From: an uncultured Sulfuricurvum sp.
GTDB taxonomy: Bacteria; Campylobacterota; Campylobacteria; Campylobacterales; Sulfurimonadaceae
Reading direction: 5' to 3'
NCBI GenBank assembly: GCA_903844635.1
Contig: CAIMUF010000074.1
Span: 62,001 to 126,000 of the forward strand
DNA length: 64,000 nt
The notes under the pieces were generated by a model. It did not search any database and was not told the origin of the DNA. It saw nothing but the letters and a program-made list of their open reading frames with translations. The translations under genes were made by a program, and so were the position numbers. Shown here in pieces: positions 3,383 to 29,386 of the stretch (position 1 is its first letter; every line of letters begins with the position of its first letter).

Positions 3383-3447
3383 GGTGGGAGTTACTAAATG
3401 GTGCGCCCGAAGGAATTCGAATCCCTGACCGCCGGTACCGCAAACCC
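3383..3447 (-). repeat. Displaced 3' half of tRNA-Arg, left island junction (att copy A)
   Basis: Bases 3396-3447 match 29306-29357, the 3' half of the intact tRNA-Arg including the encoded CCA, the T arm and part of the anticodon stem-loop. Bases 3383-3444 are also identical over 62 bp to 8366-8427, so the match to copy B extends past the tRNA end. The integrase gene starts 118 bases to the right. This arrangement is the usual mark of integration into a tRNA gene. Confidence 0.9.
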
Positions 3448-3507
3448 TTACTGGGTGGTTGTTAAAGTCCCAATAATAGGGAGCTACAGCAACTCTCTTC
3501 AACTACT

Positions 3508-3529
3508 GATACACACATGAAGTACACAT
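3508..3529 (+). promoter_or_regulatory. Candidate integrase arm-type sites, left end of element 1
   Basis: Two copies of a TACACA-centred motif (GATACACA at 3508, AGTACACAT at 3521) lie 13 bp apart, between att copy A and the integrase start. The same motif recurs near the right ends of both elements (8226-8267 and 29150-29181). Tyrosine integrases commonly bind such short direct repeats beside the core site; binding here is inferred. Confidence 0.5.
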
Positions 3530-3564
3530 AGCGCACTTCTAAAGGTAATACTTTAGGAAGACTC

Positions 3565-4785
3565 ATGCTACCACAACACACTACAGTAACAACAAGTGGT
3601 GTCTACAAATACCGTAGACGAACCCCTCAGGAACTAAAACAGTTCATAGGTTCTCACGAAATTATCCGCTCACTGGGTAAGAACCTTCATGAAGCCACAA
3701 CCAAAGCTTCCGAAATGACTCAAGCTATTTCTGAGGCAATACAGCTCACCCAACTCTCCGCTATCCCTTCTTATATTATAAGAGACTTGCTAAGCAGTCG
3801 TAACCTCATCACGATCAATGACGATAAGAGAACCCCAAAAGAGACCAAAGGAACCCTCAAGGAAATCGCTGAGATATATTTACAGTCCTTATCGGTATCC
3901 AAAGAGGAGGTAAGAGATAGAGGCTACATCCTCCTTGCGGTCTACCCTGCAATTTTTGAAGCTCTCCTCAATGACTCTAACCCACTCTTAGTGGACGTCA
4001 AGTACACGCACCTCATCAAAGCAAGAGATTTACTACAGCTATTCCCTAAGCGGAACATTCAGCAGTACCGACAGATACCCCTCAAAGATATAACCAAGGG
4101 AATCCATACAAATACAATGGAAATCCCTGCGGGGGAACGCATAAGCATCACTACCCTTAACAAATACATCAAATGGTTTAGTGTCCTTTTGACTTTCGCC
4201 GTCAAGCAAAGCATTATCCCATTCAATACGGTCACTTCAGGTCTTACTATAAAGAAAGGAGTTAGCTCAAGAGGGCAACGTAAGGAGTTCTCGCAGGATG
4301 AACTACAGACAATAGAGGAAGTATTCAAGGATGAGCCTATCTGCCCTGTGGTTAAAATTTTACGTTATACGGGGATGAGACCTAGCGAATTGCTCAAATG
4401 TTCTCTGACTGAGATTGAGGGGGTAATGTGCTTTGATTTACGGACTCCTAAGAAGGCTCTCAAGACCCTGTCAAGCCATAGACTCATACCGATTCATCCA
4501 AGCTTAAAAGGCAGTGTAGAGGGCTTTCAAGAGCTTCTGAAGGGCTATGCACAACAGTACATAACCAAGCGGTTTACTACGGTCATTCACAGATACTTAG
4601 AGGACTCTAAAAGTAAATCGATGTACTCCCTCAGACACACATTTGCTACTAACCTCATCGCTAAAGGGGTTCAGCCAGAGATCGTTAGTGAACTAATGGG
4701 TCATGCTCATAGTACGATGACAATGAATCGATACGTCAAGAGATATCCGATCAGATTGTTGAATGAGGCTATCAACTGCCTTTAA
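3565..4785 (+). CDS. Tyrosine-recombinase integrase of element 1
   Basis: 406 residues, a typical integrase length. Catalytic residues are visible: R272 in YTGMRPSEL, R357 in YSLRHTFAT, H380 in LMGHAHS and nucleophile Y390 in TMNRYVK. The usual first His of the HxxR box is Tyr354, a substitution tolerated in some family members. The N-terminal part should be the arm- and core-binding SAM-like domain. It is the first gene inside the left junction and points into the element, as expected for an enzyme that inserts and excises at tRNA-Arg. It is the only integrase found in either element. Confidence 0.93.
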   Translation: MLPQHTTVTTSGVYKYRRRTPQELKQFIGSHEIIRSLGKNLHEATTKASEMTQAISEAIQLTQLSAIPSYIIRDLLSSRNLITINDDKRTPKETKGTLKEIAEIYLQSLSVSKEEVRDRGYILLAVYPAIFEALLNDSNPLLVDVKYTHLIKARDLLQLFPKRNIQQYRQIPLKDITKGIHTNTMEIPAGERISITTLNKYIKWFSVLLTFAVKQSIIPFNTVTSGLTIKKGVSSRGQRKEFSQDELQTIEEVFKDEPICPVVKILRYTGMRPSELLKCSLTEIEGVMCFDLRTPKKALKTLSSHRLIPIHPSLKGSVEGFQELLKGYAQQYITKRFTTVIHRYLEDSKSKSMYSLRHTFATNLIAKGVQPEIVSELMGHAHSTMTMNRYVKRYPIRLLNEAINCL

Positions 4786-4802
4786 ATTGATTCAATAGGG
4801 GG

Positions 4803-4991
4803 TTAGTGTTGTTTGTTTGAGCTATCAGCAAGCTTCTTTAACCTCTCATACTGCTCTTTTGCTTCCTGAACTGCTTGTTCAAACTGGAAGCCCTGCATGA
4901 CCTTTTTGTAAAGCTCAGGCTTGTCTTTACGCCAGTTACGGAGAGTCTTAACATCAACCCCTAGAATACCCGCCATGTCACGTTGAGTCAT
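4803..4991 (-). CDS. Small HTH DNA-binding protein, probable element regulator
   Basis: 62 residues starting at ATG 4991. Residues 1-25 form a helix-turn-helix (MTQRDMAGILGVDVKTLRNW) and the rest is a charged helix that could dimerise. It faces the integrase end to end (gap 17 bases) and is divergent from the gene at 5155. The 163-bp divergent spacer holds three similar 15-bp palindromes, so a Cro/repressor-like role is likely. An excisionase-type accessory role is an alternative. Confidence 0.72.
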   Translation of the reverse strand: MTQRDMAGILGVDVKTLRNWRKDKPELYKKVMQGFQFEQAVQEAKEQYERLKKLADSSNKQH

Positions 4992-5048
4992 TTCTACCTC
5001 TTTCTTTAAGTGGTAGAAAGTTACATAACATCCTATAACGAAACAACA

Positions 5049-5126
5049 AGGTATAAATTACCTATATTAAGTTTAAAAGAGGCAATAATACCCTATCATA
5101 AGTATAGCTAAAGGCAATAATTGCCT
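5049..5126. promoter_or_regulatory. Three-site operator array between divergent genes
   Basis: Three 15-bp palindromes: AGGTATAAATTACCT (5049-5063), AGGCAATAATACCCT (5080-5094) and AGGCAATAATTGCCT (5112-5126). Start-to-start spacings are 31 and 32 bp, close to three helical turns, so all face the same side of DNA. The third is a perfect 7-1-7 palindrome. A weaker match lies at 5011-5025. They sit between the HTH gene (minus) and the cargo gene at 5155 (plus), the expected place for operators of the adjacent HTH protein. Confidence 0.65.
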
Positions 5127-5154
5127 ATAAACTTATAAAAAAAGGGAGTTTAGT

Positions 5155-5400
5155 ATGGAAGAAGAGGTTAAACAAAGTATTATAAAAATAATACATGACT
5201 ATGAAAAAATGAATCCATCCATTTGTGTTGAGCGGAAGATAATCGATTATCCTACTTTGAGTCAAAAAATTTCAACTTTTTTATTGTCTGAAGGATTAAA
5301 AATTAGAGTTGAAGATATTAACCTTGCTAGAGTAGGCATGCCTATTTTGAATGGCAGTCCTTGTTTCCCTCAGATTATTGTATCTATTGTTGGTGAGTAA
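5155..5400 (+). CDS. Hypothetical protein, 81 aa
   Basis: Small soluble protein with no recognised motif, preceded by an AAAAAAAGGGAG ribosome-binding stretch. It is the first gene downstream of the operator array, and its stop is followed after one base by the start of the exported protein gene, so the two are almost certainly co-expressed. Function unknown; context suggests element cargo. Confidence 0.6.
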   Translation: MEEEVKQSIIKIIHDYEKMNPSICVERKIIDYPTLSQKISTFLLSEGLKIRVEDINLARVGMPILNGSPCFPQIIVSIVGE

Positions 5401-5401
5401 T

Positions 5402-6139
5402 ATGGTAGCCCTCAGAAAGTTTTATATGCTAATTGCGACAGCAACACTGTTGAGCATACCTGTCTGTGCAGCCACCAAGGCCAAGAGTAGTCTAGCAGTT
5501 AAAGCGTCTATTGTACAGATACCAGTGGTTAAAACCACAACTATAGAAGGACAAGGTTTTTTAAAAACCCAAGCTGGAGAGATAAAAACGTGTGCAGGTG
5601 AACTTATCTCACTTTACTCAAAAGATGATTATATGAAGTTCCTAGGAAAGGAAATATATTTGAAAAAAATGCAGCAATTCGAAGAATACGTTAGAGTAGC
5701 AGAAAGTGAGAAAAAGAATGATGGAACAACATTACAAAGTTACTATCGTGATCAGGCATATGCTGCTGCTAAAGAACTTAGTAATGACTACAGTCAACTT
5801 GATATTGGAAAATTCTACCGATATGATGCTTTTAAAGAAGATATTAAAAAAGCAAAAGATTTTGAAATCAAAAAATTATCAGATCTTGGAGACACATATA
5901 AGGTTATAGTCCAGTCTCAGTGCGATGCAAGTGGCAATTTTAGCTTTAAGAATATACCTTTTGGAAGTTATGGCGTAGTGACAAGTGTTACGTGGAGCAG
6001 AGTTGTAGTACCAAAGTATATAGCTCCATACACTGTTTTAGAAGGTGGAAAAGTAGGAAAAGAGGTTGTTGTAGATGAAAATTTACAGAAAGTGTTTATT
6101 GTAGATTTATTACCACAAGCACGTTTATTAACACCATAA
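5402..6139 (+). CDS. Exported beta-sandwich protein (carboxypeptidase-regulatory-like)
   Basis: 245 residues from ATG 5402, chosen over the upstream in-frame ATG 5351 because GGTGAG lies just before it and it gives a clean signal peptide (MVALRKFYMLIATATLLSIPVCA, cleavage near 22-23). After the leader come strands with a GQGFLKTQAGEIKTCAGE stretch, a charged helical insertion (about 85-165) and a QCDASGNFSFKNIPFGSYGV stretch. The last is the N-F-x-F-x-x-I-P-x-G-x-Y pattern of carboxypeptidase-regulatory-like beta domains. It is probably periplasmic or surface-located. No enzymatic motif is visible. Co-transcribed with the 81-aa gene. Confidence 0.68.
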   Translation: MVALRKFYMLIATATLLSIPVCAATKAKSSLAVKASIVQIPVVKTTTIEGQGFLKTQAGEIKTCAGELISLYSKDDYMKFLGKEIYLKKMQQFEEYVRVAESEKKNDGTTLQSYYRDQAYAAAKELSNDYSQLDIGKFYRYDAFKEDIKKAKDFEIKKLSDLGDTYKVIVQSQCDASGNFSFKNIPFGSYGVVTSVTWSRVVVPKYIAPYTVLEGGKVGKEVVVDENLQKVFIVDLLPQARLLTP

Positions 6140-6281
6140 ATAAGTTTATAAGAAAACTAGCTTTTAGAATTCTTCCCAAGAATTTTTCGGCTACCCTTGA
6201 GTCGAAGGATAGCCTTGCAACTCAATAACCTCCCCCTCCTAAAAAAAGATACCAAGAAATATTTAATCTAACGCTACACGA

Positions 6282-6426
6282 TGGAATACATATTCTCATA
6301 AACCACCGTTTGCAAGAATGAAGTATTCCAACAAGATTTTAACGTAAAATAGGGCTTTTCGTATTCTCATAAACATATCTCAATATTAAGTTATCAATTG
6401 GTATAATATTGATGAGATTTGAGAAT
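6282..6426. promoter_or_regulatory. Candidate res site and resolvase promoter
   Basis: The gene-free stretch 6140-6440 ends in a cluster of related sequence: TATTCTCATAAAC as direct repeat at 6291-6303 and 6362-6374, the inverted pair TGGAATAC (6282-6289) / GTATTCCA (6323-6330), and an inverted pair ATCTCAATATTA / TAATATTGATGAGAT (6377-6419). A good -10 box TATAAT lies at 6402-6407, inside the last palindrome. This layout matches res sites of serine resolvases, which lie just upstream of and repress their own gene. Bases 6140-6280 show nothing else I can assign. Confidence 0.5.
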
Positions 6427-6440
6427 AAAAAGGAACTAAG

Positions 6441-6998
6441 ATGTTAATCGGTTACGCCCGTGTCTCTACGCAAGATCAAAACCTAATGTTGCAGACAGAA
6501 GCCCTCAATAATGCAGGGTGCTTAAAGATATTTGAAGATAAAATAAGTGGCACTCGAACAATCCGAGAGGGATTAAGTAAAGCCCTTGAGCAATTAAGAG
6601 AGGGTGATACGCTTGTAGTTTGGAAACTAGATCGTTTAGGTCGTAGCGTAAAAGACCTCATCACTCTTGTCAGTGAATTAAACAAGCAGGGGATTAACTT
6701 TAAGAGCCTCACGGACTCTATTGATACTTCAACGCCATCGGGACGCTTCTTCTTTCATGTCATGGCATCTTTAGCGGAAATGGAACGAGAGTTGATTATT
6801 GAGCGTACGAGAGCAGGGCTTGCCGTTGCTAAGAGCCTTGGGCGAACTGGTGGGCGTAAACGGTTGATGACTGATACTAAAATTGAATCAGCTAAAAAAC
6901 TATTAGAGGCAGGAACACCGCCCAAGGACGTTGCTAAAAGTCTAGGCATATCCGTGCCTACTCTGTACAGACACTTGCCGGCAACTGGTAATTCTTAA
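6441..6998 (+). CDS. Serine recombinase (resolvase/invertase family)
   Basis: 185 residues, the standard length of Tn3-type resolvases. Nucleophile Ser9 lies in GYARVSTQDQ, and the catalytic arginines are in the KLDRLGRSVKDL stretch. The C-terminal HTH is about 155-180 (PPKDVAKSLGISVPTLYRHL). An AAAAAGGAA ribosome-binding site precedes the ATG. No transposase is nearby, so it more likely resolves multimers of the excised element or inverts a segment than serves a transposon. Confidence 0.92.
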   Translation: MLIGYARVSTQDQNLMLQTEALNNAGCLKIFEDKISGTRTIREGLSKALEQLREGDTLVVWKLDRLGRSVKDLITLVSELNKQGINFKSLTDSIDTSTPSGRFFFHVMASLAEMERELIIERTRAGLAVAKSLGRTGGRKRLMTDTKIESAKKLLEAGTPPKDVAKSLGISVPTLYRHLPATGNS

Positions 6999-7155
6999 AT
7001 AAATATAAAGCACTATCCTTTAGGTATTGTGTAGAGTGTTTTAAGGCACTCAGGGGCACGAAGGCTCAAAAGTCGTATATAATATTAAACGATGCTAAAA
7101 TACTCGTAGAGAGCTTCTTCTGAGTAACTTAAGAAATCAAAAAAAGGATGATGAA

Positions 7156-8058
7156 TTGAAAGAATTAAGTCCTGCATTGGTGCGATTGGCTGATAAAATC
7201 ATGCCCCAAATACTACAAAAAACTCTTATTGGCGGTGATTTGGAAAAAACTGCTAATGGATACAAACTTACACATAATATTTTTAGTGTTGGCTTTGATA
7301 CGCTTCGTCTAGGGCTTCCAAAAATAAAAAAAGATTACCAATCTAATACTATTAATCTACAAGCATTATGTGATGCTATCGGTGCGACACTTCATCCTTT
7401 TTTATATTTTAAATCTATCGATAGTAAAACTCCTCTTTATACGGATAATAAAGAACTTCAAAGGCTTTTTCATAAAAACAGTAAGTTTCATGGTAGTTTT
7501 AGAAAGCAATTTAAATACACTGGGGGAGTATGGATAATCAAATATAAAGATATTTCTCACTGGATTATAGATTCATTGAACAGTAAAAGATTGTCATTTG
7601 AACTCTATGGACTATCGCAACTGGATCATGAATTAGGTGCTATACGCTTTGAACTTTTGAATAAAGTATTAGCATTTTATGCACCCAATAAAAAAGCTAT
7701 GCATAAAGTTGTTCTTGAAGGATATGATTTTCACATAGATTTAAATAAGCCGTTTGATGATGTTGTTTCAACTTTTATTGTCCCTAAAATCTATCTTCAA
7801 AACAAAAAGAAGAAAAGAGGTAAACAAGGACTGCATATAGCAAACGTAGGAAGCGTATATTTACAACCATTCAGTCGCTATCCTAAATCCAAAGAGTGTG
7901 TTTATAGCAAGACTTTGAAAAATACTTTAGGCTATCCTTTGACTAGGTTAGAGCGTTCTGTAAGGCTTGATACAGAAGATAAAAAGGTTTTATTAAATTG
8001 CTATGGCGATCTCAGCGCGCTACAAGAAGAGGAACTTAAAAACTTAGGACTTCTATAG
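7156..8058 (+). CDS. Unrecognised protein, possibly a replication initiator
   Basis: 300 residues with a TTG start at 7156, preceded by AAAAAAGG. Two upstream ATGs (7148, 7151) run into a stop at once. The protein is basic, with no signal peptide or membrane helix. Near residues 253-275 it has a Y-S-K-x-x-K ... P-L-T-R-L-E-R-S-V-R-L pattern that faintly recalls the YDK...xR-x-E-x-R-L segment of rolling-circle Rep proteins. A 156-bp inverted repeat follows directly. A replication role for the excised element is a hypothesis only; I do not recognise the family with confidence. Confidence 0.6.
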   Translation: MKELSPALVRLADKIMPQILQKTLIGGDLEKTANGYKLTHNIFSVGFDTLRLGLPKIKKDYQSNTINLQALCDAIGATLHPFLYFKSIDSKTPLYTDNKELQRLFHKNSKFHGSFRKQFKYTGGVWIIKYKDISHWIIDSLNSKRLSFELYGLSQLDHELGAIRFELLNKVLAFYAPNKKAMHKVVLEGYDFHIDLNKPFDDVVSTFIVPKIYLQNKKKKRGKQGLHIANVGSVYLQPFSRYPKSKECVYSKTLKNTLGYPLTRLERSVRLDTEDKKVLLNCYGDLSALQEEELKNLGLL

Positions 8059-8060
8059 AT

Positions 8061-8216
8061 TTTACTAAGTAGTTGCTCTTTTAATCTGCCAGTGGTAAAC
8101 CCTTGAGCCATACTATTAGGTTGTCAAAAGGTATATTTAAAGATTATTGCATCAAAAGTCTCTCATAGCAACCTCAAGGGATACTACTGGCATTTTAAAA
8201 GTAACTACTTAGTAAA
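8061..8216. repeat. 156-bp imperfect inverted repeat
   Basis: Arms of about 45 bp, 8061-8107 (TTTACTAAGTAGTTGC... to CCCTTGAG) and 8173-8216 (CTCAAGGG... to AACTACTTAGTAAA), are inverted copies with a few mismatches around a 65-bp centre. The outer 14 bp (TTTACTAAGTAGTT) are perfectly complementary. It begins 3 bases after the stop of the preceding gene. It could be a replication-origin cruciform, a strong terminator or a MITE-like insert. Confidence 0.75.
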
Positions 8217-8225
8217 TTATAAAAC

Positions 8226-8267
8226 AATACACATAACTGGTACACAGTTGCGAGTAAAAGGTACGCA
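8226..8267 (+). promoter_or_regulatory. Candidate integrase arm-type sites, right end of element 1
   Basis: AATACACAT (8226), GGTACACAG (8239) and GGTACGCAG (8260) lie about 100-150 bases inside att copy B. They match the TACACA motifs at the element 1 left end and at the right end of element 2. Confidence 0.5.
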
Positions 8268-8304
8268 GAAAGCTAGTGCAATTCAAGGCTTGTTGAGGTT
8301 TTAT

Positions 8305-8427
8305 ATGTTAGAGTTATAGTCTTGGAAGTTCGTATTTGAGGGCTTTGTGTGTGATTTATAAGTTATGGTGGGAGTTACTAAATGGTGCGCCCGAAGGAAT
8401 TCGAATCCCTGACCGCCGGTACCGCAA
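8305..8427 (-). repeat. Right end of element 1 with displaced tRNA-Arg half (att copy B)
   Basis: Bases 8379-8427 repeat the tRNA-Arg 3' half. Bases 8305-8346 match 29240-29281 at 36 of 42 positions, so the two elements share terminal sequence beyond the att core. The tRNA match stops at GCAA (8427); element 2 sequence (TGCGTACATA) follows. Confidence 0.88.
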
Positions 8428-9015
8428 TGCGTACATAAAAACTTCCAAATCAATAGAAAACCTCACAAAATAGAGGTTTACTAGAGTTGTTTCCTTTAAA
8501 TTTATTATTTTGTTTGTGTAACGTCTTTTAGTGCGATAAATGCGGTGTTTGTGGGCTTCGTATATTTTCGTTTATGCAACTTAGTAAGTGATTTTTGTCA
8601 CGTTCTGTCACGGGAAAGAGCTATGAAACAGTATAAAAATCAAGATTGGAATTTTCAATATAATCTAGCGTATGAACAATTAATGGTCTCTTCTATAAGT
8701 GGATGCATGACTTAATCCAACAATCACTCTGTCAAATATAGATCTAATTCTAGAGAAAATTACTATTGAAATTATGCAAATTTTAGCACCATGTCGGAAA
8801 ACTTTTATGTTATGTATTCGTACGATTTAGCAAAGCGATAGTGTAATCCGTATATTAAGATGACTATTTTTGCTATTGTTTATGAGAAGAATGTAGAGTA
8901 TGTGAAAAACATTTGTTTAAATAATTGAAAGGTGCTCACTGATAGATAAACTCTCTATTAAATGAGAACCATTCTTTTCTTATTATATAGGTAAAGTAAA
9001 TCAATTCAATTTTAA
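8428..9015. other. Gene-free left end of element 2
   Basis: 588 A+T-rich bases without a supportable gene. It begins with a CGTACATA motif close to att copy B, resembling a single arm-type site. No remnant of an integrase reading frame could be recognised in any frame. Confidence 0.5.
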
Positions 9016-11004
9016 TTACAACATAATTTCTAAACGTATTCCAACAACTCTTGGCGGGGCAAAATGGTAATAATCATGACTAGGGGTATGGATCATAAAA
9101 TCGACGTTTTCGGAACCAAAAAGATTGTTGGCATACACTTCCATAGTCCATTTCTTATCTTTGTACCCAAATCCTCCATTACAGGTCGTGTAGCCATCTT
9201 CATGTTTGGTGTTGTCAACATCGTAATAACGTTTTCCCATATAAGTGAAGGAAGTTTTAGCATACCAGTGCGGATCAAAACGATAATGGCCTCCCATCGA
9301 CAAGGTCATATCTGGAACATCGATAAGGTTTTTACCTGAGTAATCGATCCCATTGGAGATGAAGGTTTCGTATCGTGCTCGTATTAATCCAAAACTACCA
9401 TAAACATCAAGATTATCAACGCTGTAATTCAAGCTGGATTCAACTCCATAACTGTAGGCACTATTTGCATTTTTGGTTTGGGTTGCGAGGGTATTATCAA
9501 ATACAATGGTTCGAAGATTAGAGATATCGTTGTAAAATAGCGCGTGGCTCATATTCCAGCTACTGCCAAAAAACTGCTTATATCCCAGCTCATAACTTTG
9601 TGTCACCTCACTCATATAGGGGACAAGGGTTGTTCCGCTGCTGCGGTAATTATATCCGCTTGGACGGTATCCTTTGGTATAAGTGAGATAAGTGTTAAAA
9701 TCATCGGTACCATACGAGAGTGAAACCATCGGAAGCCAATCATGAGACGTTAGGGTAGCACTAATAGGTGCTGAAAAACCGCTGTAATCACGACAAAAAT
9801 CACGATTGGTTTGTTGATAGCGTATCCCGCCATTTAGTACCAAATAATCGCTAATCGTGTATTTCACCTGACTAAATAATGCAATATTTTGATCGATATT
9901 ATCTAAAATATTGCTATTATTGTAAGCTGGAAGCGCGGTAAATACTTGTTTTTCTTTATAGTTAAACTTGAGTTTATCGCTGTAAAATGCCCCGATAACG
10001 TAGTCAAAATCTTTTTTTGTTCCATTGAGACGAAGCTCTTGGGATATCTCTTTGATATTGATATCAACTCCCAAATCTAAACCGCCTAAAATCGCCACAT
10101 AATCTTGTTTTTGTATGCTTTGATTTGAGTAGGCTGTAGCTGATGTGATCGAATAATCATTTTGAATCGCTTTTACCACCAGAGAGAGCAAATCATTATT
10201 CATGATAACGCTGTCGTCTTTTGGTTCATTATCGATGTGATATGGGTCGTTTTTGGTATCGATCTTAAAGGGTGTCCCGCCATCGTTGACTTTTGATTTT
10301 GTGTAGTTCAATGCTATATTAAAATAATTAGAGGGAATATAGTTTAGCTTCATAGACAAACCTGCTAAGTCACGGTGGTCGAAAGGATTGTGTGTGATCG
10401 TATTGGTTGCATAGCCATCAGTTGTTTTTTTTGTGAGGGCGAGAGAACCCCACACCTTATCCACCACTGTTGGTCCGCTAATACGACCGTATAGCTCTCG
10501 TGAGTCATATTCAGCTATGCCAAGACGCGCTTCGCTTTCAAGATTCTTTGAAATCGGCTTAGTATAGATATTGATCACACCAGATTCAGCATTTTTACCA
10601 AACAAGGTTCCTTGCGGTCCTTTGAACATTTCGATAGTATCAACATTGTTCATATCTACTGTTCCAAATCCATAGCTCATTGGAAGAGGGACATCGTCAA
10701 TATACATCGCAACACTCGATTCTATTGCGACGTAGTTGCTGATACCACGTACCGTGAAAGTAGTCTCTGAACGAGTACCGAGTCCTGAAATATTAGTATT
10801 AGGAAAAACGGCGGAAAGCTTCTGAATAGTATCAATGTTTTGAGTCTCTATTTGAGCCGAAGAGATCACATTGACTGTATGCGGTATTTCGAGAGAGGAT
10901 TCATCCATTTTAGCCGACTGTATGACAATAGGTTCCAACTCTAGGGCATAGAGTACATTGACGATAAAAAGAGAATAAAGCCCAATAGTTTTATGCAAAA
11001 TCAT
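9016..11004 (-). CDS. TonB-dependent outer-membrane receptor
   Basis: 662 residues with a signal peptide (about 1-20). The plug domain shows VNVISSAQIE, FTVRGISNY and the MFKGPQGTLFG(K)NAESGVINI plug core; a TonB box-like PIVIQSA lies at about 25-31. The rest is a 22-strand barrel ending GIRLEIML. Overall it resembles FyuA-type siderophore receptors; substrate unknown. It is the last gene of element 2's minus-strand group, 122 bases after the histidine kinase. No clear Fur box lies upstream, and no TonB/ExbBD genes are in the window, so energising must come from elsewhere. The kinase next door may sense a related signal, but this is inference. Confidence 0.9.
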   Translation of the reverse strand: MILHKTIGLYSLFIVNVLYALELEPIVIQSAKMDESSLEIPHTVNVISSAQIETQNIDTIQKLSAVFPNTNISGLGTRSETTFTVRGISNYVAIESSVAMYIDDVPLPMSYGFGTVDMNNVDTIEMFKGPQGTLFGKNAESGVINIYTKPISKNLESEARLGIAEYDSRELYGRISGPTVVDKVWGSLALTKKTTDGYATNTITHNPFDHRDLAGLSMKLNYIPSNYFNIALNYTKSKVNDGGTPFKIDTKNDPYHIDNEPKDDSVIMNNDLLSLVVKAIQNDYSITSATAYSNQSIQKQDYVAILGGLDLGVDINIKEISQELRLNGTKKDFDYVIGAFYSDKLKFNYKEKQVFTALPAYNNSNILDNIDQNIALFSQVKYTISDYLVLNGGIRYQQTNRDFCRDYSGFSAPISATLTSHDWLPMVSLSYGTDDFNTYLTYTKGYRPSGYNYRSSGTTLVPYMSEVTQSYELGYKQFFGSSWNMSHALFYNDISNLRTIVFDNTLATQTKNANSAYSYGVESSLNYSVDNLDVYGSFGLIRARYETFISNGIDYSGKNLIDVPDMTLSMGGHYRFDPHWYAKTSFTYMGKRYYDVDNTKHEDGYTTCNGGFGYKDKKWTMEVYANNLFGSENVDFMIHTPSHDYYHFAPPRVVGIRLEIML

Positions 11005-11126
11005 ATAAATTATTATACCCAGTTATTTTGTCTGTATTTCTCGTGCTCATAGATGTATCAATAAGATTGGATTTTACCAATGTAGCAATTAAAGTCTAAA
11101 AGACAGCATTGAAAATATTGATGATA

Positions 11127-20258: not shown

Positions 20259-22965
20259 GGTTAAACAGTTTATCGATCACAGTTCAAAAACCGAAAAGTT
20301 TTTGATGATCATTGTGGCGATTATCGTCATTTCGACAGTACTTTCGCTGATCGTCAAAGTAATTATGGATACCCAAAGCAAAGATACCTATAAAATCGCA
20401 GTTGTGATTCCAAGTAACGCCCAAGAAGCAACATCGATCCTTCAAGGGGCGCAGAGCTATGTAGAATCGATCAACAAAGATAAAACCTCACACTATCGAT
20501 ATGAAGTTGTCATTTTAAAAGATAACGATAGTGAGTTGGTTTCAAAAGTAAAATCCCTCTCAGAAGACAGCGATTACGTCGGCGTCATAGGATTTTACAA
20601 TAATGCTCAAGTGCTAAAATCGGTTCAAAATATTAATGTGCCTATTTATAGCCTCTCTTCAGAAAATGCATTACCTTCTAAAAATGTTCATCTATACACT
20701 TTCGATGAGACAAAAAAATCGCAATTTATTGCAAACTATATGCGAAACGTCAAAAAAGAGCATTTCACCTATTTTGCTCACGATAATTCTTTGAAATGTC
20801 AACAAGAACAAAAAGAGTTTGAGACGCTCTATAAGCGATTTGAGATACCGCTCAAAGGTTCTGTAAGTACACAACAGGGGATACAGGGATATTTTGATAA
20901 AGTCGATTTTGGCGCTGTTTACATCTGTGGAGATGAAAACAGCAGTGTGGAGATTTTAAAAAGCATCAAGTCAAGTAAAACAGAACTTACGACGTATTCA
21001 AGCGAAGTCTTAGCGCTCAACAGTGCTAAAAGCCGTTTGGCTGATCCTTCAAACAGCCTTGATGGAATATTTGTACCTACTCCGTTGTTGTTCGATACGT
21101 CCAGTAAAATGGCCCAAAACTTTTTAAACAACTACGTCAAACTCTACAATACGCAGCCAGATTGGTTAGGGGCAATTTCTTATGATATGGCACAAATGGC
21201 TTTTGAAAAAGCGTTAAAAAAAGCAACATCACAACATGGTGTGATTCGAGATTATGAATACAATAAAAATCTCTTTACGCTTCCTCTCAAAATGGGGCAG
21301 TACAACGGTGACCAGATCGTATCGGCACCCATACAGCTCCAAGAAATCGCCAATAAACATTCGATAAGCAATTATATTCAGGCGATGAGAGATGGGAGAG
21401 TGTTGTATGTCAATGATAGCTTTATGTACAAAACCAATGTCGTCTATACCGGTATCAAAATAAATTCTATTAGCAAAATCAAGCAAGACGAGGAAACTGC
21501 ACAAATCGATTTTTCGATTTGGTTCCGTTATCAGGGTAATTTTGAGCCAAGTGATATTATGTTTCTCAACTCGGATGTGGTTTTGCAAAAGCCTGAAGAG
21601 AAGATCGATATGGAAAATGATCATTATGTTCGCTTTAGAACCAAAGGGGTCTTTAAGCTCAATTTTTCGAAAAACCAAAAGTCTTACGGGGTAAATACGG
21701 TCAATATCATCTACAGACACAAAAAGCTAAACCACAATAACCTCTTGTTTGTAAGTGATTTGCTTGGTATGCCCAATAACAAAGAGATGATTACACAGAT
21801 AAACGATCGAAAAGTAATCGATACCGCTGCTGTATCCGAAGCAAGAGATTTTTCGATTTCACAATCATTGTTGAGGGATTACAGTGAGGGTAAACCACAA
21901 TATATAGGATTTCAAGGGGAAGACGCACTCTTCTCGGTCGTTAATATGGAACTTAGGCTCGAATCGTCCATGATCACTGCAAACGATTTTATCCCGAAAA
22001 AATATTTCATTTATTTGATGATTTTTGGTTTTGTTGGTCTCATAGGAGCGAGACTTATGGATTCAAAAAGACTTGGTAGATATTGGTACATCCAGTCTTA
22101 CGTATTGAGGCTCGTATTTTTGCCAATGTTGCTGATAGCGCTTGGAAATATGATTCTTGATTGGGCGTATGTGAGTCTTGATCATCTGATTACCTCTTAT
22201 TTGGTTGTAGTGTATGAGGCTCTTTGGTGGTTGTTGCCTGCATATTTGATCGATTCGGCAATTAGACGTTTCGTTTGGTATAAAATAGAAGAGAAGGCGG
22301 GTAAAAAGATACCTGCTATTATTGTCATCTTGGTTACTTTCGTCATCTATGCACTTTCAATTTCAGGGATTATTGCATTTGTATTTCATGAAGAGCTTAC
22401 GAGCATGCTTGCTGCATCCGGTGTTATTGCGATGGTGGTAGGTTTTGCGATACAAGCCAACATTGCCAATATTTTTTCGGGTTTAGTCTTGAACATGGAC
22501 AGACCGTTTAAAGTAGGTGAGATCGTAGAACTGGATGATATTTGCGGAGAAGTGCTGGATATCAGCTGGAGAACGACTAAGATTAAAAATTGGGATGGGA
22601 TTATCTACACGATACCCAACGATCAACTCTCCAATACGCAGATGAAAAATATCAGTCGTACAGAGGTTTTTTTATCTGAAAAATACATCAATCTAAATCC
22701 CGATATAGATCCAATATTAGCAACTGAATTAATCAATGAAGCGTTGATGCAATGCGAAACTATCGTCGAAAAAGATCACGAATATTATGGTGCAGAGGCA
22801 CTTTATAGTGGTCATGTGATCGAAGGGGAGCAATGGGTAGGGCGATATTTGGTTTGGATGAGTACCAAAGATTATTATGATTATGAGATAGCAGAAAACG
22901 AGCTGTGGTCAAAAATGTATGAAGTATTTAAGCGGGAAAATTTGGAGTTGTATAAACCCGAATAA
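20251..22965 (+). CDS. Periplasmic-binding-protein / MscS channel fusion
   Basis: 904 residues. One N-terminal membrane anchor (about 17-38). Then a type I periplasmic binding fold (about 47-370; YKIAVVIPSNAQ ... DYVGVIGFYNN ... LDGIFVPTPL), as in branched-chain amino-acid receptors. A beta-rich domain (about 395-580; FSIWFRYQGNFEPSDIMFLN) follows. The membrane part has about five helices (588-750), ending with the MscS pore helix (SGVIAMVVGFAIQANIANIFSGL) and the MscS beta domain (RPFKVGEIVELDDICGEV). The layout suggests a ligand-gated rather than purely tension-gated channel. It overlaps tpsA1 by 8 bases, so the two are co-translated. Substrate and role unknown. Confidence 0.9.
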   Translation: MNKVKQFIDHSSKTEKFLMIIVAIIVISTVLSLIVKVIMDTQSKDTYKIAVVIPSNAQEATSILQGAQSYVESINKDKTSHYRYEVVILKDNDSELVSKVKSLSEDSDYVGVIGFYNNAQVLKSVQNINVPIYSLSSENALPSKNVHLYTFDETKKSQFIANYMRNVKKEHFTYFAHDNSLKCQQEQKEFETLYKRFEIPLKGSVSTQQGIQGYFDKVDFGAVYICGDENSSVEILKSIKSSKTELTTYSSEVLALNSAKSRLADPSNSLDGIFVPTPLLFDTSSKMAQNFLNNYVKLYNTQPDWLGAISYDMAQMAFEKALKKATSQHGVIRDYEYNKNLFTLPLKMGQYNGDQIVSAPIQLQEIANKHSISNYIQAMRDGRVLYVNDSFMYKTNVVYTGIKINSISKIKQDEETAQIDFSIWFRYQGNFEPSDIMFLNSDVVLQKPEEKIDMENDHYVRFRTKGVFKLNFSKNQKSYGVNTVNIIYRHKKLNHNNLLFVSDLLGMPNNKEMITQINDRKVIDTAAVSEARDFSISQSLLRDYSEGKPQYIGFQGEDALFSVVNMELRLESSMITANDFIPKKYFIYLMIFGFVGLIGARLMDSKRLGRYWYIQSYVLRLVFLPMLLIALGNMILDWAYVSLDHLITSYLVVVYEALWWLLPAYLIDSAIRRFVWYKIEEKAGKKIPAIIVILVTFVIYALSISGIIAFVFHEELTSMLAASGVIAMVVGFAIQANIANIFSGLVLNMDRPFKVGEIVELDDICGEVLDISWRTTKIKNWDGIIYTIPNDQLSNTQMKNISRTEVFLSEKYINLNPDIDPILATELINEALMQCETIVEKDHEYYGAEALYSGHVIEGEQWVGRYLVWMSTKDYYDYEIAENELWSKMYEVFKRENLELYKPE

Positions 22966-22993
22966 AAAACCAAATGTACATTATTCATTAAAG

Positions 22994-23040
22994 AAACTTT
23001 TTTGGAACTTTTTTATTTTAGAGTTACATAACTATAACTC
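22994..23040 (+). promoter_or_regulatory. Promoter region of tpsA2 with the shared tandem motif
   Basis: AAACTTTTTT followed by GGAACTTTTTT (22994-23014) matches the motif before tpsB1 with one mismatch over about 20 bases. At the equivalent distance lies a weak TTACAT (23024), or TATAAC at 23033. GAGTTA/TAACTC (23021-23040) also form a small inverted repeat. Its presence shows that tpsA2-tpsB2 is a separate transcription unit from the upstream operon, probably under the same regulator. Confidence 0.58.
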
Positions 23041-23057
23041 TTATAAAAGGTTCCTGT

Positions 23058-26000
23058 ATGAAATACACTCCCGATTTTTGCTCACGCTTTCGGATTCTAA
23101 AAGGAGGGAAGATCTCCCTCGTTGTTTCAGCTCTTGTAGCCGGAAGTACAATGACCTTTGCATCCCCTACAGGCGGTCAAGTCACTAGCGGTAGCGCAGC
23201 TATCGCTCAAAACGGCTCCATAACGACCATAAACCAATCCTCCAATAAAGCCTCCATTAACTGGAACAGCTTCAGCATTGCTCCATCTGAGACAGTAAAC
23301 TTCGTTCAGCCCTCATCTTCTTCGGTTACTCTTAACCGTGTGATAGGAACAACCCAGTCTCTTATTCAAGGCGCTATGAACGCCAACGGTCAAGTATTCC
23401 TCCTCAATCCAAATGGTGTACTTTTCGCCAACGGTTCGCAGATCAATGTTGGTGGATTAGTCGCTTCCACACTCAACATCACCGATGAGAACTTCCAATC
23501 AGGTAACTACCTCTTTGAAGGTAACAGCCAAAACTCTATTATCAATATGGGAACCATTACCGCTAACAATGGCTACGTAGCTATGATGGGTAAAACGGTA
23601 CAAAATGAGGGAACCATCGTAGCAACGATGGGGAATGTCCAAATGGCATCGGGAGAGAAGATCAGTCTGAACCTAAACGGTAACTCTCTGGTAAAACTCA
23701 CAATTGACCAAGGGACCCTAAACGCTTTAGTAGAAAATAAAGGTCTCATCCAAGCCGACGGCGGTCAAGTCTATCTCACGACCCAAGCACTCAATACTAT
23801 TCTCGATGGTATGGTGAATAATACGGGAGTTATCGAAGCGCAAAGCCTCAACAACGTCGATGGTAAAGTTGTTCTTTACGCACACGGCGGAACCACGACT
23901 GTCAGCGGAACACTTGATGCGACAGGCGGGTTTATCGAAACATCTGGGAACAAACTTGGTGTTGCAGAGGGTACAGTTATCAAAGCTAAAAAATGGTTGA
24001 TTGACCCTGTGGATATTGTAATTGATCCAGCAGGTGGAGCTGATCTTGGCGGGTCATCTATTAGAGGAGCAACAATTAACACAGCACTAAATGCCGGCAC
24101 CAGTGTTACCCTTAGTGCTACAAATGACATTACACTCTATGATGTCATTGATAAATCATCTGGGGGTGATGCAACTTTGGAGTTGATTGCAGGTCATGAC
24201 ATCGTATTTGGATTTACTCCAGCAAATCCTGATGCGCAGACGCTAGCCACTTATGGAAAAATACTCCAAACGGGAAATCCTACTGGGAATCTTCTCGTAA
24301 ATTTATTTGCTAGAAATCGCTTTACGATGTCGGATGTGAGTAATGAGATTAATGTTAAGGGTGATGTTGCAATCAGCGCTGCTCAAGGATTTTACCTTAG
24401 AAATATTACTTCAAGTGAGGGATCAATTAACACAGAAATGTCACATACTCCAATAGTATCCTCGAATGGAAGTACAGTAGACGGAATACTATTTGGAAAA
24501 AATGGTGTATCTCTTGTTGCGAGTGCAGACACTGACAATGCTTTGACCATTGCGGCAGGGTCATCTATCGATGCAACCGATGCAATTGTATGGCTTCAGG
24601 GTATTGCTACGACTGGCCACAAGGCTTTAACCATCGAGGGTAACAGTGAAGTGCCTACGAATATAGGATTACATTCTTCTGAGGTTTTTCTCAGCGGGTA
24701 TACACCTGGTATTGCTGCGGGTATCGAATTGGGTACAGTGAATGTAGGTAATTCTAATTCAGCTATTTATGTAGAAGCAGGCGGACATGCTGCGAATGGT
24801 GATAGTATCGTTTTCCAACCAAATAGCACTCAACATTTTCAAGCATCATCGATGTCTATCAGCTCAAATAAGGACATGTACATCAATAGTTCATTGTTGA
24901 CTAGTGGTGAAGAACTGGTTCTTAGTGATATTACCAAGTTCACAACACTTGTCCCCAATTCAACGCTTGATATTGGAAATGAGAATGGTGGACAAAATAC
25001 TTTACATATTGGAAACACCATCGATTTAAGCACGGGAAGCCATTCCAAGTTAACCTTTTATGGATCTAATACTACGGATGTAGTGGTGGGTGATAGTGCC
25101 GGCGGAGCTATTTTACTCCAAGGTACTATGGATAAGCCTATCAGTATTTTTAAACTGCAAGGAGGTAATATTGTTTTTGGAGAGACTTCAACTCCTTCTG
25201 CGACCACCACTCTTACCCTAAATAATGTGGATGCGGAGATACGGGGTGACTATACTGGAATGATGATGATTGGTGCCAGTAACGATATTAAGATTTTAAA
25301 CTCCATTTTATATAGCGGTGCTGCCTTAATGGCTGCTACTAATGACTCCATCACAGTTGATGGATCAATTCTAAGTGTAAATAATAGCGACTTTGGTCTT
25401 ATCGCCCTTGCATCAAACATGGATGACAATGGTGGAGCGATTGTGGTTAACAACTCTACCATTAAATCGACTTCAGATGTTGGCTTCATTGCTATGAGTG
25501 GTGGCTCTGCATTTAATTTTGCGGATTTCTCGACTGGTTTTGCAAAAGGGATTGATGCAGCTGGCTACACCAACGGTGTTACGATTAACAACTCGACCAT
25601 CGGAGACAGCACAAAAAATACATTTATCAACATCCAAGGTGAAAGTGCAAGAGTGGGTCATGATGTAGCAGGGAATTCTGAATACTATTTGGCAACGGAC
25701 CTAGACTTGACATCCAACGTTGCTAATGGTGTTTTAATCAGCGGGGCTTCAGCTTTGTATTCAGGGACAGCTGATTTGTCTATCTCAGGGAAAATGGCAG
25801 CTCAAACGGATGCAGGATCACGGGTCTATGGCGCAGGTGTTTTTATCATGGGAAATACCAATAAAACAACGCTTAACTCAACAACAGGAAACATCACCAT
25901 CACAGGAGATGCCACATCGGTTACGGGACATACGAACGCAAGCGCGTGGTTTAAAGGAGTTGATTTACAAAACGCTTCTCTCCTCTCAACATCCGGAAAT

Positions 26001-27266
26001 ATATTCCTTGATGGTAAAACTTCCGCTCAAGGACAGATCTATGTAGGAACAGAGGGTGTTGACCTCGATGGAGTAACTATTACCACAGGGGGAAATCTAA
26101 GTATCAATGCCATATCAGGAGGTGGAAGCAGTGCCTTTAGAACACTCACGCAGTGGGGAAATAATTTTATTACCGCCAATAGTTTAGACCTCACTACATC
26201 TAATTCATGGGCAAATAATGATAAGTCTTCTGTGGATACAATGAATGTATTTGGACATAACGGATGGTTCGATAATACGAACGACGTATGGAGACTCGGG
26301 GATTATTTGTATGTCGAAAGTAGCGCAAATGGAGCTGGAGTCAATATTGAATCAAAACTTGTTGTGGGTGGACGTACGATACTCAATGTATCCTCTGTCT
26401 ATGGTGATACATATCTTGAGAATGCAGCAAATGAAATTCATGATCTTCGCGTAATGGATACAAGATTTTTAAGCTTGGTTACAACCCAAGCATTGGATGT
26501 TTTGAGTCTTTCAAGCAGAGGTGATGTGTATTTACAATCAGGAAGTGACATTAATATCAATGGTGCTGTTTCTATCGGTGCTAACTCGGCCGCCTTCTTT
26601 ATAGCAGACTCTGCACATGGCGGAAAGTTTACCGTAGCAGATGGTGTATCGAACATACAGTTGGGTGAGGGTTCAAAATACTACATTTATTCAAGCAGCC
26701 CAAGTGTTACACAATTAGGAAGCTATGCACCTGACTTTAGCGTGTATGAAAAAAGTTATGCTAACTACAGTAATCCAATGCTAAGTAACGATGGAAGTGG
26801 AGTAGTTTATTTTGGAGCAGCAGAAGTGACACCTGAGCCACAACCAGAGCCGACACCTGAACCACAACCAGAGCCAGAGCCAACACCCCATCACCATACA
26901 CCTATCGAGGATATCGTGACCACCATTGTCAATCAAAGTGTTATTGTGCCTCAAAACATCACGCCACCGTTGTCACCACGTGTAGAGCAACAGTCACTTC
27001 AAATGCAAACAGCATTGAATTCTTTACTTCCGACACAAAATAGTGATGATTTCTCTCTCGTCAGCACAACGGATGGAAATGGGTATCTACAATTATTAAG
27101 CATGAATGACATCAAAAAATCACTTCCGAGTGGTAGCGAGATTCGTGTACCACTGGGACATGATAGCGTCGTAGAACTCATAAATGGAGGGGTTAATCTC
27201 CCAGATGGTGTGAGCCAAGAATTCTATGTCGTAGATAACAACAATAAAAAATCCAAAAAGAACTAA
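23058..27266 (+). CDS. TPS exoprotein TpsA2 with Pro-Glu-rich linker
   Basis: 1402 residues. A long basic signal peptide (about 1-35, MKYTPDFCSRFRILKGGKIS..., ending MTFAS) resembles the extended signal peptides of large autotransported proteins. TPS domain about 36-250 with MNANGQVFLLNPNGVLFANG. A repetitive beta-helix runs to about 1255, followed by a proline/glutamate linker (EPQPEPTPEPQPEPEP, about 1258-1276), three histidines, and a compact terminal domain of about 120 residues. No MBG domain and no cysteine anchor are visible. tpsB2 follows after 10 bases. Likely a secreted fibre or adhesin distinct from TpsA1. Confidence 0.92.
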   Translation: MKYTPDFCSRFRILKGGKISLVVSALVAGSTMTFASPTGGQVTSGSAAIAQNGSITTINQSSNKASINWNSFSIAPSETVNFVQPSSSSVTLNRVIGTTQSLIQGAMNANGQVFLLNPNGVLFANGSQINVGGLVASTLNITDENFQSGNYLFEGNSQNSIINMGTITANNGYVAMMGKTVQNEGTIVATMGNVQMASGEKISLNLNGNSLVKLTIDQGTLNALVENKGLIQADGGQVYLTTQALNTILDGMVNNTGVIEAQSLNNVDGKVVLYAHGGTTTVSGTLDATGGFIETSGNKLGVAEGTVIKAKKWLIDPVDIVIDPAGGADLGGSSIRGATINTALNAGTSVTLSATNDITLYDVIDKSSGGDATLELIAGHDIVFGFTPANPDAQTLATYGKILQTGNPTGNLLVNLFARNRFTMSDVSNEINVKGDVAISAAQGFYLRNITSSEGSINTEMSHTPIVSSNGSTVDGILFGKNGVSLVASADTDNALTIAAGSSIDATDAIVWLQGIATTGHKALTIEGNSEVPTNIGLHSSEVFLSGYTPGIAAGIELGTVNVGNSNSAIYVEAGGHAANGDSIVFQPNSTQHFQASSMSISSNKDMYINSSLLTSGEELVLSDITKFTTLVPNSTLDIGNENGGQNTLHIGNTIDLSTGSHSKLTFYGSNTTDVVVGDSAGGAILLQGTMDKPISIFKLQGGNIVFGETSTPSATTTLTLNNVDAEIRGDYTGMMMIGASNDIKILNSILYSGAALMAATNDSITVDGSILSVNNSDFGLIALASNMDDNGGAIVVNNSTIKSTSDVGFIAMSGGSAFNFADFSTGFAKGIDAAGYTNGVTINNSTIGDSTKNTFINIQGESARVGHDVAGNSEYYLATDLDLTSNVANGVLISGASALYSGTADLSISGKMAAQTDAGSRVYGAGVFIMGNTNKTTLNSTTGNITITGDATSVTGHTNASAWFKGVDLQNASLLSTSGNIFLDGKTSAQGQIYVGTEGVDLDGVTITTGGNLSINAISGGGSSAFRTLTQWGNNFITANSLDLTTSNSWANNDKSSVDTMNVFGHNGWFDNTNDVWRLGDYLYVESSANGAGVNIESKLVVGGRTILNVSSVYGDTYLENAANEIHDLRVMDTRFLSLVTTQALDVLSLSSRGDVYLQSGSDININGAVSIGANSAAFFIADSAHGGKFTVADGVSNIQLGEGSKYYIYSSSPSVTQLGSYAPDFSVYEKSYANYSNPMLSNDGSGVVYFGAAEVTPEPQPEPTPEPQPEPEPTPHHHTPIEDIVTTIVNQSVIVPQNITPPLSPRVEQQSLQMQTALNSLLPTQNSDDFSLVSTTDGNGYLQLLSMNDIKKSLPSGSEIRVPLGHDSVVELINGGVNLPDGVSQEFYVVDNNNKKSKKN

Positions 27267-27276
27267 GGGATAACCT

Positions 27277-28953
27277 ATGAAAAAACTATTAACCCTATCC
27301 CTCCTTACTTCAGTTGCCTTGATGGCAGCTGCACCAACGACCGGAGACATCCTCCGTCAAGTAGAACCAGTACAAATGCCAGCGCTTGAAAAAGCTCTCC
27401 CTTCAGTAGGAACAGGGGAGTACAAAGCACCAATTTCTGCCAAAGACGATGTAGTGACATTTGTTAAATCATTTCGATTTAGCGGTAATACAGCATTTAG
27501 TTCCGAGGTGCTCTCGGCATTGCTAAAACCCTACGAGAACAAAGAAGTGGGAATCAATGGTCTAAAAGAGATTGCTTCCGTCATCACTAAATTCTACCGT
27601 GACCACGGCTACTTCGTAGCCCGTGCGTATATCCCTGCTCAAAGTATGGAGAACGGTATCATCGAGATTGCTATTATCGAAGGAACTTACGGCGCGTTTG
27701 ATGTGAAAAATAGCTCGTATGTTGATACTATAGAAGTCCAAGGATTTATGGATCACCTCAAAGGAGGAGCTCTGGTCTCTACGATGAGCTTAGAGCGCCA
27801 AATGCTCCTCATCAATGACCTCTCAGGTGCACAAGTCACCAATGCCGAAGTGTATCCAGGACAAGCAGTAGGAACCAGTGACTTTCGTATCACCGTGTCA
27901 CCAACTCAAAAATATACAGGCTACGCAATAGCAGATAATTATGGTTCACGCTATACCGGTGAAAACCGTCTAAACGTTATGGGAACAATCAACAGCGTAA
28001 GCGGCATCGGCGATACCCTAAGCCTTAGTGGTATGATCTCTAATACTCGTGATCTTAAAAATGTTCGTTTAGCTTACGATCGTCCACTTGGATACAACGG
28101 TCTTAAAGGAGGAGTAAGTGCAAGTATTACTGACTATACTATCTCAGAGATCAAAAACTATGAAGGGTCTGGACGAACAGACAGCTATAACGCCTATGTC
28201 TCTTACCCATACCTTAAAACACGCAGTCAAACCATCAGTACCGATTTAAGCTACGATCATAAAAGTATGAAAGATTCAAACGGACTTCCAGGATTGGTCG
28301 ATGAAAGCCGTAAAAAACTGGATGCGATTACCCTTCGTCTCAATGATAAACAAAACACCTCACTCCTAAACCTTCCAGGAAGTCTTTATGCCTCAGTAGG
28401 GTTCACAGGCGGACATCTTGGACTGGATAACCAAGTAGCCTATACGAATGATGCAGCGATCAATGCACAAGGTAACTACGCAAAAGCAAACGTGAGTCTT
28501 AATCATACTCAGGTCATTGCTGATTCACTAAACCTGCAATCCATGATTAAAGGACAAAAAAGTTTCGGTAAAAACCTTGATTCGGCCGAAGACCTCTCAG
28601 TCGGAGGATCTAATGGCGTTCGAGCCTATGAAGACTCAGAACTTAGCGGTGACCAAGGTTATGCACTTTCACTAGATATGGTATATGCCCTTCCAAAAAT
28701 CAATAGTATCAATCATAATACAAGTATATTCTTTGATCATGCAAAAATATGGAAAAACACCAGCATCTTTAACACTGAAGACAATGACCGTGTACTTAAC
28801 GCTGTTGGTGTCGGCTATGCAATGAACTACAAAAGCTTCGATCTCAAAGCAACCTTCGCACATGGCTTCGGAGGTGAATCAACCCCAACCACAGAGGCTG
28901 AAATCTCTACAAGTACGAATAAGTTCCTTGTTCAGGGGATGTATCGATTCTAA
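27277..28953 (+). CDS. TPS outer-membrane transporter TpsB2 (FhaC/ShlB family)
   Basis: 558 residues. Signal peptide about 1-18 (ending LMAAA), POTRA_2 domain about 60-138 (FRFSGNTAFSSEVL ... YRDHGYFVARAYIPAQ), then the 16-strand barrel with GGSNGVRAYEDSELSGDQGY, the VRAY/VRGY lid-lock region, and terminal MYRF. It is partner of TpsA2. Gene order here is A-B, opposite to the B-A order of the first pair, which argues for two independent acquisitions rather than a tandem duplication. Confidence 0.93.
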   Translation: MKKLLTLSLLTSVALMAAAPTTGDILRQVEPVQMPALEKALPSVGTGEYKAPISAKDDVVTFVKSFRFSGNTAFSSEVLSALLKPYENKEVGINGLKEIASVITKFYRDHGYFVARAYIPAQSMENGIIEIAIIEGTYGAFDVKNSSYVDTIEVQGFMDHLKGGALVSTMSLERQMLLINDLSGAQVTNAEVYPGQAVGTSDFRITVSPTQKYTGYAIADNYGSRYTGENRLNVMGTINSVSGIGDTLSLSGMISNTRDLKNVRLAYDRPLGYNGLKGGVSASITDYTISEIKNYEGSGRTDSYNAYVSYPYLKTRSQTISTDLSYDHKSMKDSNGLPGLVDESRKKLDAITLRLNDKQNTSLLNLPGSLYASVGFTGGHLGLDNQVAYTNDAAINAQGNYAKANVSLNHTQVIADSLNLQSMIKGQKSFGKNLDSAEDLSVGGSNGVRAYEDSELSGDQGYALSLDMVYALPKINSINHNTSIFFDHAKIWKNTSIFNTEDNDRVLNAVGVGYAMNYKSFDLKATFAHGFGGESTPTTEAEISTSTNKFLVQGMYRF

Positions 28954-28967
28954 ACCTGCTTAGTCAT

Positions 28968-28986
28968 ACAGAGCTTATGGCTCTGT
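28968..28986 (+). terminator. Hairpin after tpsB2
   Basis: ACAGAGC-TTATG-GCTCTGT, a perfect 7-bp stem with a 5-base loop, lies 15 bases after the tpsB2 stop. There is no downstream T-run, so it may act as an RNA 3' stabiliser or a weak terminator. Confidence 0.4.
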
Positions 28987-29010
28987 GTCCTCGTCAATCA
29001 CGTTAAAATA

Positions 29011-29109
29011 ATGCAATCAATCCATACTAACACACATAAAGACACTGCAGTCAAAGCATTTGAAACCTTTGATTATGCCAAAGAATTAATTAATGCCGTT
29101 GACACCTGA
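29011..29109 (+). pseudogene. Possible truncated small gene at right end of element 2
   Basis: A 32-codon reading frame (ATG 29011 to TGA 29109) encodes a peptide ending TAVKAFETFDYAKELINAVDT. The TFDYAKEL part resembles the conserved N-terminal end of short DUF1640-like coiled-coil proteins, cut off by a stop. It may be a decayed gene at the element boundary. Bases 28954-29309 otherwise hold only the hairpin, arm-type sites and the element-end repeat. Confidence 0.25.
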
Positions 29110-29149
29110 GGTTGTTCTCGTCGGGGTAAGTGTCCGACGGATGACTTTA

Positions 29150-29181
29150 GGTACACACAAGTGATACACATTTCGTACACA
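29150..29181 (+). promoter_or_regulatory. Candidate integrase arm-type sites, right end of element 2
   Basis: GGTACACAC (29150), GATACACAT (29163) and CGTACACAA (29174) are spaced 13 and 11 bp. They correspond in position and sequence to those before att copy B, supporting use of one integrase by both elements. Confidence 0.52.
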
Positions 29182-29239
29182 AAAGGAGGGGATAAGTACA
29201 TGAGAGTAATGACTGCTTTAAGTTAAATGAAAGATATGT

Positions 29240-29357
29240 ATGTTAGAGTTTCAGTCTTAGAAAGTCGTATTTAAGGGCTTTGAGAGTGTTTTTTGATTAG
29301 TGAGGTAAATGGTGCGCCCGAAGGAATTCGAATCCCTGACCGCCGGTACCGCAAACC
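29240..29357 (-). repeat. Right end of element 2 and att copy C
   Basis: Bases 29240-29281 match the element 1 right end (8305-8346, 36 of 42). Bases 29306-29357 are the tRNA-Arg 3' half shared with copies A and B. The tRNA gene is kept intact because the element supplies an identical 3' half. Confidence 0.85.
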
Positions 29358-29386
29358 GGTGCTCTATCCAGCTGAGCTACGGACGC
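29310..29386 (-). tRNA. tRNA-Arg (anticodon GCG)
   Basis: 77 nt on the minus strand with encoded CCA. Acceptor stem GCGTCCG/CGGGCGC (one G-U pair), D arm GCTC/GAGC, anticodon stem CCGGT/ACCGG with loop TTGCGGT, and T arm AGGGA-TTCGAAT-TCCTT. Anticodon GCG reads CGC (and possibly CGU) arginine codons. The 3' half is the integration target of the two elements to its left. Confidence 0.95.

Follow-up and report, generated by a model that had tools for sequence, protein, structure and literature searches.

Tandem elements at a tRNA-Arg(GCG) gene, one with and one without an integrase

The tRNA-Arg gene and the two units beside it

The window, that is, the whole stretch of 64,000 nucleotides analyzed here, comes from the draft genome of an uncultured Sulfuricurvum sp. 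(86 contigs). According to ARAGORN, its sole tRNA gene is an intact tRNA-Arg(GCG), and no Rfam family other than this tRNA was found in positions 1 to 30000. The preliminary description of the locus had reported three copies of the 3' part of this gene in one shared orientation. An exact-identity comparison bore out both points, the coordinates holding to within 1 base. Copy C, which belongs to the intact gene, is identical to copy A over 52 bp (29306-29357 to 3395-3446) and to copy B over 49 bp (29306-29354 to 8379-8427). Copies A and B share 62 bp (3382-3443 and 8366-8427), an identity that runs 13 to 17 bases beyond the tRNA end, as had been described. With up to 3 mismatches allowed, an 18-mer of the tRNA occurred 3 times, against 0.08 expected. 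In the whole genome, the repeat has 100% matches only at A, B, and C, all on one 285-kb contig; the remaining matches (73 to 77%) are paralogous tRNAs. The three copies delimit two units, element 1 (A to B) and element 2 (B to C), whose features are listed in Table 1.

Table 1. Features of the tRNA-Arg locus, in window coordinates
Feature	Position	Strand	Evidence
Flank outside copy A, resembling the tRNA 3' flank of relatives	3280-3394	.	93% to G002 over 117 bp including tRNA; block adjoins tRNA in empty G063
att copy A at distal end of element 1; tRNA 3' part from anticodon loop to CCA	3395-3446	-	52 bp identical to C
Element 1 tyrosine integrase (DUF6538 + Phage_integrase)	3565-4785	+	Pfam PF00589 5e-13, PF20172 1e-9
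62-aa helix-turn-helix ORF adjoining integrase	4803-4991	-	HTH_Tnp_1 2.6e-4, below Pfam cut-off
Element 1 cargo ORF	5351-6139	+	phrog_14789 (family of unknown function)
Serine resolvase/invertase, element 1	6441-6998	+	PF00239 2.8e-47
300-aa protein, element 1	7156-8058	+	no family match
Right end (arm) of element 1	8300-8378	.	homologous to right ends of element 2, G036, G011, G321
att copy B, element 1/element 2 junction	8379-8427	-	49 bp identical to C
Element 2 left end, with upstream region and truncated start of dnaB-like gene	8428-8829	+	shared with G002 right inside its att copy
TonB-dependent receptor, element 2 cargo	9016-11004	-	PF00593 1e-34
7TMR-DISM histidine kinase, element 2 cargo	11127-13031	-	PF07695 3e-27, PF02518
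Response regulator, element 2 cargo	13028-13714	-	PF00072 1.7e-25
TpsB/ShlB-type outer-membrane transporter, element 2 cargo	13855-15582	+	PF03865 4.5e-22
TpsA-type exoprotein with MBG repeats, element 2 cargo	15591-20258	+	PF05860 2.6e-35, PF18676
MscS-like channel with periplasmic-binding-like domain, element 2 cargo	20251-22965	+	PF00924 1.4e-19
Second TpsA-type exoprotein, element 2 cargo	23058-27266	+	PF05860 1.4e-34
Second TpsB/ShlB-type transporter, element 2 cargo	27277-28953	+	PF03865 2.6e-24
Element 2 right end (arm), of the element 1 type	29239-29305	.	82% over 124 bp including tRNA
Intact tRNA-Arg(GCG), target gene	29310-29386	-	ARAGORN; Rfam RF00005 61 bits; att copy C formed by its 3' part, identity to A/B starting at 29306

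Element 1 spans approximately 3444-8427, with an A-to-B period of 4984 bp (~5.0 kb). An integrase had been placed just inside the leftmost copy; it lies about 120 bp from A and is the only tyrosine integrase of the region. Its sequence carries the conserved GMR...YSLRHT...GH...Y motifs and looks intact, and the helix-turn-helix ORF beside it is a candidate regulator or excision factor. Weak relatives of the serine resolvase lie near integrases of the same family in three other genomes (G415, G135, and G394). At 8061-8216, a long imperfect inverted repeat (arms of ~47 bp, 83%) gives a strong predicted hairpin (z, -6.9); because it is single copy in the genus, its interpretation as a small transposon was dropped.

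The annotated ORFs of element 1 include no relaxase or mobilization gene, the 300-aa protein being without a family, and because no relaxase was found, the element is not called an IME. Nor is it classed as a prophage, since phage structural, packaging, and replication genes are absent and the PHROGs matches comprise recombinases and one family of unknown function. Viral contigs contained no relatives of the integrase, and its search against genome_contigs gave no close match. Element 1 combines a tRNA 3' direct repeat at both ends, an intact-looking integrase near an att copy, and an empty site in relatives, which are the marks of a tRNA-targeting tyrosine-integrase element.

Element 2 extends from approximately 8428 to 29354, with a B-to-C period of 20927 bp (~20.9 kb), and its cargo is composed of two-partner secretion, TonB uptake, and sensing genes, surface functions of a kind that varies between strains. 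Pfam annotation of all large ORFs revealed neither an integrase nor transfer genes, and relaxed tblastn with three integrases found no integrase remnant. The suggestion that the 21 kb is a defence island was rejected, as PADLOC gave no meaningful match. With att copies at both ends (B and C) and neither an integrase nor transfer genes of its own, element 2 shares these features with CIMEs. The truncated dnaB-like gene at its left end may reflect decay from an ICE or IME; a conjugation or mobilization relic was not found. Element 2 is best read as an integrase-less, partly decayed CIME-like (cis-mobilizable-type) island. Since only the 5-kb unit has an integrase, the expression "two elements" should not be taken to mean two autonomous elements.

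Element ends and the integrase family

The right ends of the two elements are of one type. Over the 75 bp beyond the tRNA 3' end, B and C align with a score of 63 (tRNA excluded); none of 2000 shuffles exceeded 30, and no background segment exceeded 24. The same right-end type was also found in G036 at tRNA-Met, in G321 at tRNA-Leu (integrase 44% identical), and in G011 beside tRNA-Arg; across these five right ends, 0 to 1 of 1000 shuffles scored as well, and for the match between elements 1 and 2 themselves the number was 0. The left end of element 1 likewise matches that of G036 (0/1000 shuffles). Because it recurs at tRNA-Met, tRNA-Leu, and tRNA-Arg, the right-end type tracks the integrase family and not the tRNA, and therefore element 2, judging from its end sequence, was probably placed by an integrase of the element 1 family although it encodes none.

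At its left end, element 2 is unlike the other members on their integrase side, and it may therefore have an incomplete att site. This end is 80% identical to sequence that precedes a dnaB-like gene in G035; the gene is full length in that genome and cut after ~30 codons in element 2, where the start is a relic. That G002 has the same left end suggests that this relic is old. Besides the copy that precedes the G035 gene, an upstream region related to 8428-8720 lies close to a ParA-like gene in G027.

When 399 genomes of the order were searched, the integrase proved to have relatives in 11 others, giving 12 loci together with G036. Nine of the 12 have a tRNA segment in two direct copies, 4.4 to 12 kb apart, with the integrase immediately inside one copy, and the targets are tRNA-Ser, -Leu, -Pro, -Met, -Val, and -Arg. 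In a genome of another taxonomic family (G055), the target of an 11-kb element is again the 3' part of tRNA-Arg(GCG). Two of the nine loci depart from the common form: the repeat in G415 is the 5' and not the 3' part of the tRNA, and that in G367 is only 18 bp long. No tRNA repeat was found at the integrase loci of G313, G394, and G387. In G036 (L057, 3751-11020), the integrase, 67% identical to that of element 1, is located between two tRNA-Met genes that both look complete and share 70 bp of identity. The G367 locus (L121) holds two unrelated tRNA repeat pairs (Ser and Leu) close together, which suggests two elements at facing tRNA clusters.

The locus in related genomes

The sample contained 40 other genomes of the same genus. 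The tRNA is flanked by UbiA-orf2-orf3 on one side and, on the other, by an rsfS-like gene, nadD, gap, pgk, and tim. The preliminary description had proposed that two units of about 5 and 21 kb accreted side by side, and had called for relatives with an empty or single-element site. Two genomes turned out to be empty, with 189 bp (G063) and 271 bp (G062) between orf3 and a tRNA oriented as in the window. G002, which the tree places nearest, holds 6.1 kb between its two copies (catalase-peroxidase, TPP enzyme, and MarC) and no integrase, and in G008 the equivalent copies enclose 31.6 kb that includes a different tyrosine integrase; in both, the cargo is unrelated to that of the window. A single gene occupies the locus in G005 and G015, and G025 has a 6.3-kb integrase-less block between copies. 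The tRNA-Arg locus is an insertion hotspot in these relatives; the empty sites, the other cargo in G002 and G008, and the element-specific ends support the accretion of two units. Another array at the same tRNA was seen in G025 (L053/L054), in which a tRNA-Arg copy separates two large surface-type genes and no integrase is present.

The outermost junction, left of copy A, has been rearranged relative to G002 and G008. The flank outside A resembles the sequence next to the intact tRNA in G002 and not the flank outside the equivalent copy of that genome, and an AAA_14/DUF4143 ATPase gene (1902-3185) lies between orf3 and A that is absent there in G002, G008, and G063. Because the same block adjoins the tRNA in the empty site of G063, this flank is at least as likely to be native as to be the end of a third element. 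A simple scenario in which element 1 was inserted later, at the distal copy, does not agree with this flank.

The tRNA-Arg gene itself, together with its promoter-like upstream sequence, faces one way in some genomes and the opposite way in others, although the convergent genes on its two sides are the same (window 29310-29500; G063, G062, G024, G029, and others, L080-L095). In 8 examined genomes, including that of the window, it points from rsfS/nadD to orf3, and in the others it points the opposite way. Placed on a tree built from five flanking proteins of 24 genomes, these orientations require at least 3 changes in the genus. Direct-repeat integration does not explain these flips.

Origin of the array and comparison with known systems

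We consider it highly probable that an integrase element has accreted with a cargo island at the same site, the latter placed by an integrase of the same family, lacking an integrase itself, and keeping its att copies and an integrase-type end. The tyrosine integrase would have the 3' part of tRNA-Arg(GCG) as its attB site, element 1 would be a small integrative element encoding that enzyme, and element 2 would be a cargo island inserted at the same site, whose integrase and replication genes may have been lost since or never carried. Standard attP × attB recombination in the tRNA 3' part would account for the array, and as the incoming DNA would restore the tRNA each time, the gene would stay intact. 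Side by side, the two elements would form a composite from which element 1 could excise alone (A × B); in principle, its integrase might also excise element 2 (B × C) or the whole 26 kb (A × C). The polarity of recombination, the action of the integrase on B and C, and any present mobility are here read from the arrangement of the DNA.

Alternatively, the 21 kb may never have been a site-specific element, its cargo having been brought in between the tRNA-flanking repeats by natural transformation or homologous recombination, for which the tRNA copies would have supplied the homology arms. Several sites of the genus with tRNA copies around integrase-less cargo (G002 and G025), and the different cargo that G002 and the window hold behind the same left end, speak for such exchange; however, exchange alone gives no reason for the integrase-family end of element 2 beside the tRNA, and we regard it as unlikely. 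Slightly less credible still is that two autonomous elements, each with its own integrase, came together and that element 2, otherwise normal, lost its integrase recently. The family-type right end and the replication-gene relic agree with such an origin, whereas the failure of sensitive tblastn to detect an integrase remnant argues against it, as does the truncated left end, which recurs in G002 with different cargo and, again, without an integrase. Because that end is shared, the decay either predates the split from G002 or arrived with an already decayed element, and this alternative differs from accretion with an integrase-less island mainly in timing.

A misassembly in which unrelated contigs were joined at the 49- to 62-bp repeat is very improbable: the genome is a draft and the repeats are shorter than many assembly k-mers, but the order of both flanks agrees with that in relatives, and G002 has the element 2 left end next to an att copy at this same locus. 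That the 21 kb belongs to the ancestral core, with mobility confined to the 5 kb, for which the missing integrase might speak, can be practically dismissed, being contradicted by the relatives examined: the 21 kb is absent at the locus in G063, G062, G002, and G008, no close relative has the 26 kb there, and these empty or otherwise filled sites, together with the absence of the MscS-like gene from the 40 other genus genomes and of the 300-aa gene from 298 other genomes of the order, argue strongly against the whole 26 kb as core DNA.

This tRNA-Arg gene is a well-resolved insertion hotspot, with empty, single, large, and composite states across related species; both its gene content and its relatives make Campylobacterales the probable order of the host. 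The family of small integrase elements, having moved among several tRNA genes, could be used for testing the movement of integrase-less neighbors. As a speculation that we ourselves think unlikely, the tRNA-Arg gene may be a general docking site in the genus, where integrase-less cargo is exchanged in trans by integrases of neighboring or transient elements and most of the variable cargo moves without a recombinase of its own.

Reviews (PMC5704250, PMC7563491) cover tandem IMEs at tRNA genes and the accretion of IMEs or ICEs with CIMEs, for instance in the ICESt1-related elements of Streptococcus thermophilus. The streptococcal composites also have tandem att copies at one tRNA 3' end and an integrase unit next to a decayed integrase-less neighbor that keeps its att sites; unlike them, neither unit described here has an identified relaxase or conjugation gene and the host is of another phylum. 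For the genomic islands at ssrA of Dehalococcoides, accretion has been proposed (PMC3146451). They, too, form an array marked by 3' repeats of one RNA gene, with the integration module in only some islands, whereas the enzyme there is the serine recombinase DsiB acting at ssrA and here it is a tyrosine integrase at tRNA-Arg. Within what is probably the same broad lineage, the Campylobacterota islands CJIE2/CJIE3 and ABGI1 are described as single islands, each with an integrase (PMC2147049). They share with our case a position in a tRNA 3' end and a terminal integrase, a likeness of arrangement, but the window holds a tandem with one integrase. Small tRNA-bounded elements with a tyrosine recombinase and exchangeable cargo are known as tycheposons. 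Named in PMC10872708 and elsewhere, they represent a similar element type in another lineage, the resemblance being one of organization. Taken with these systems, the tandem elements at tRNA-Arg are a clear new case of a known mode of island stacking.
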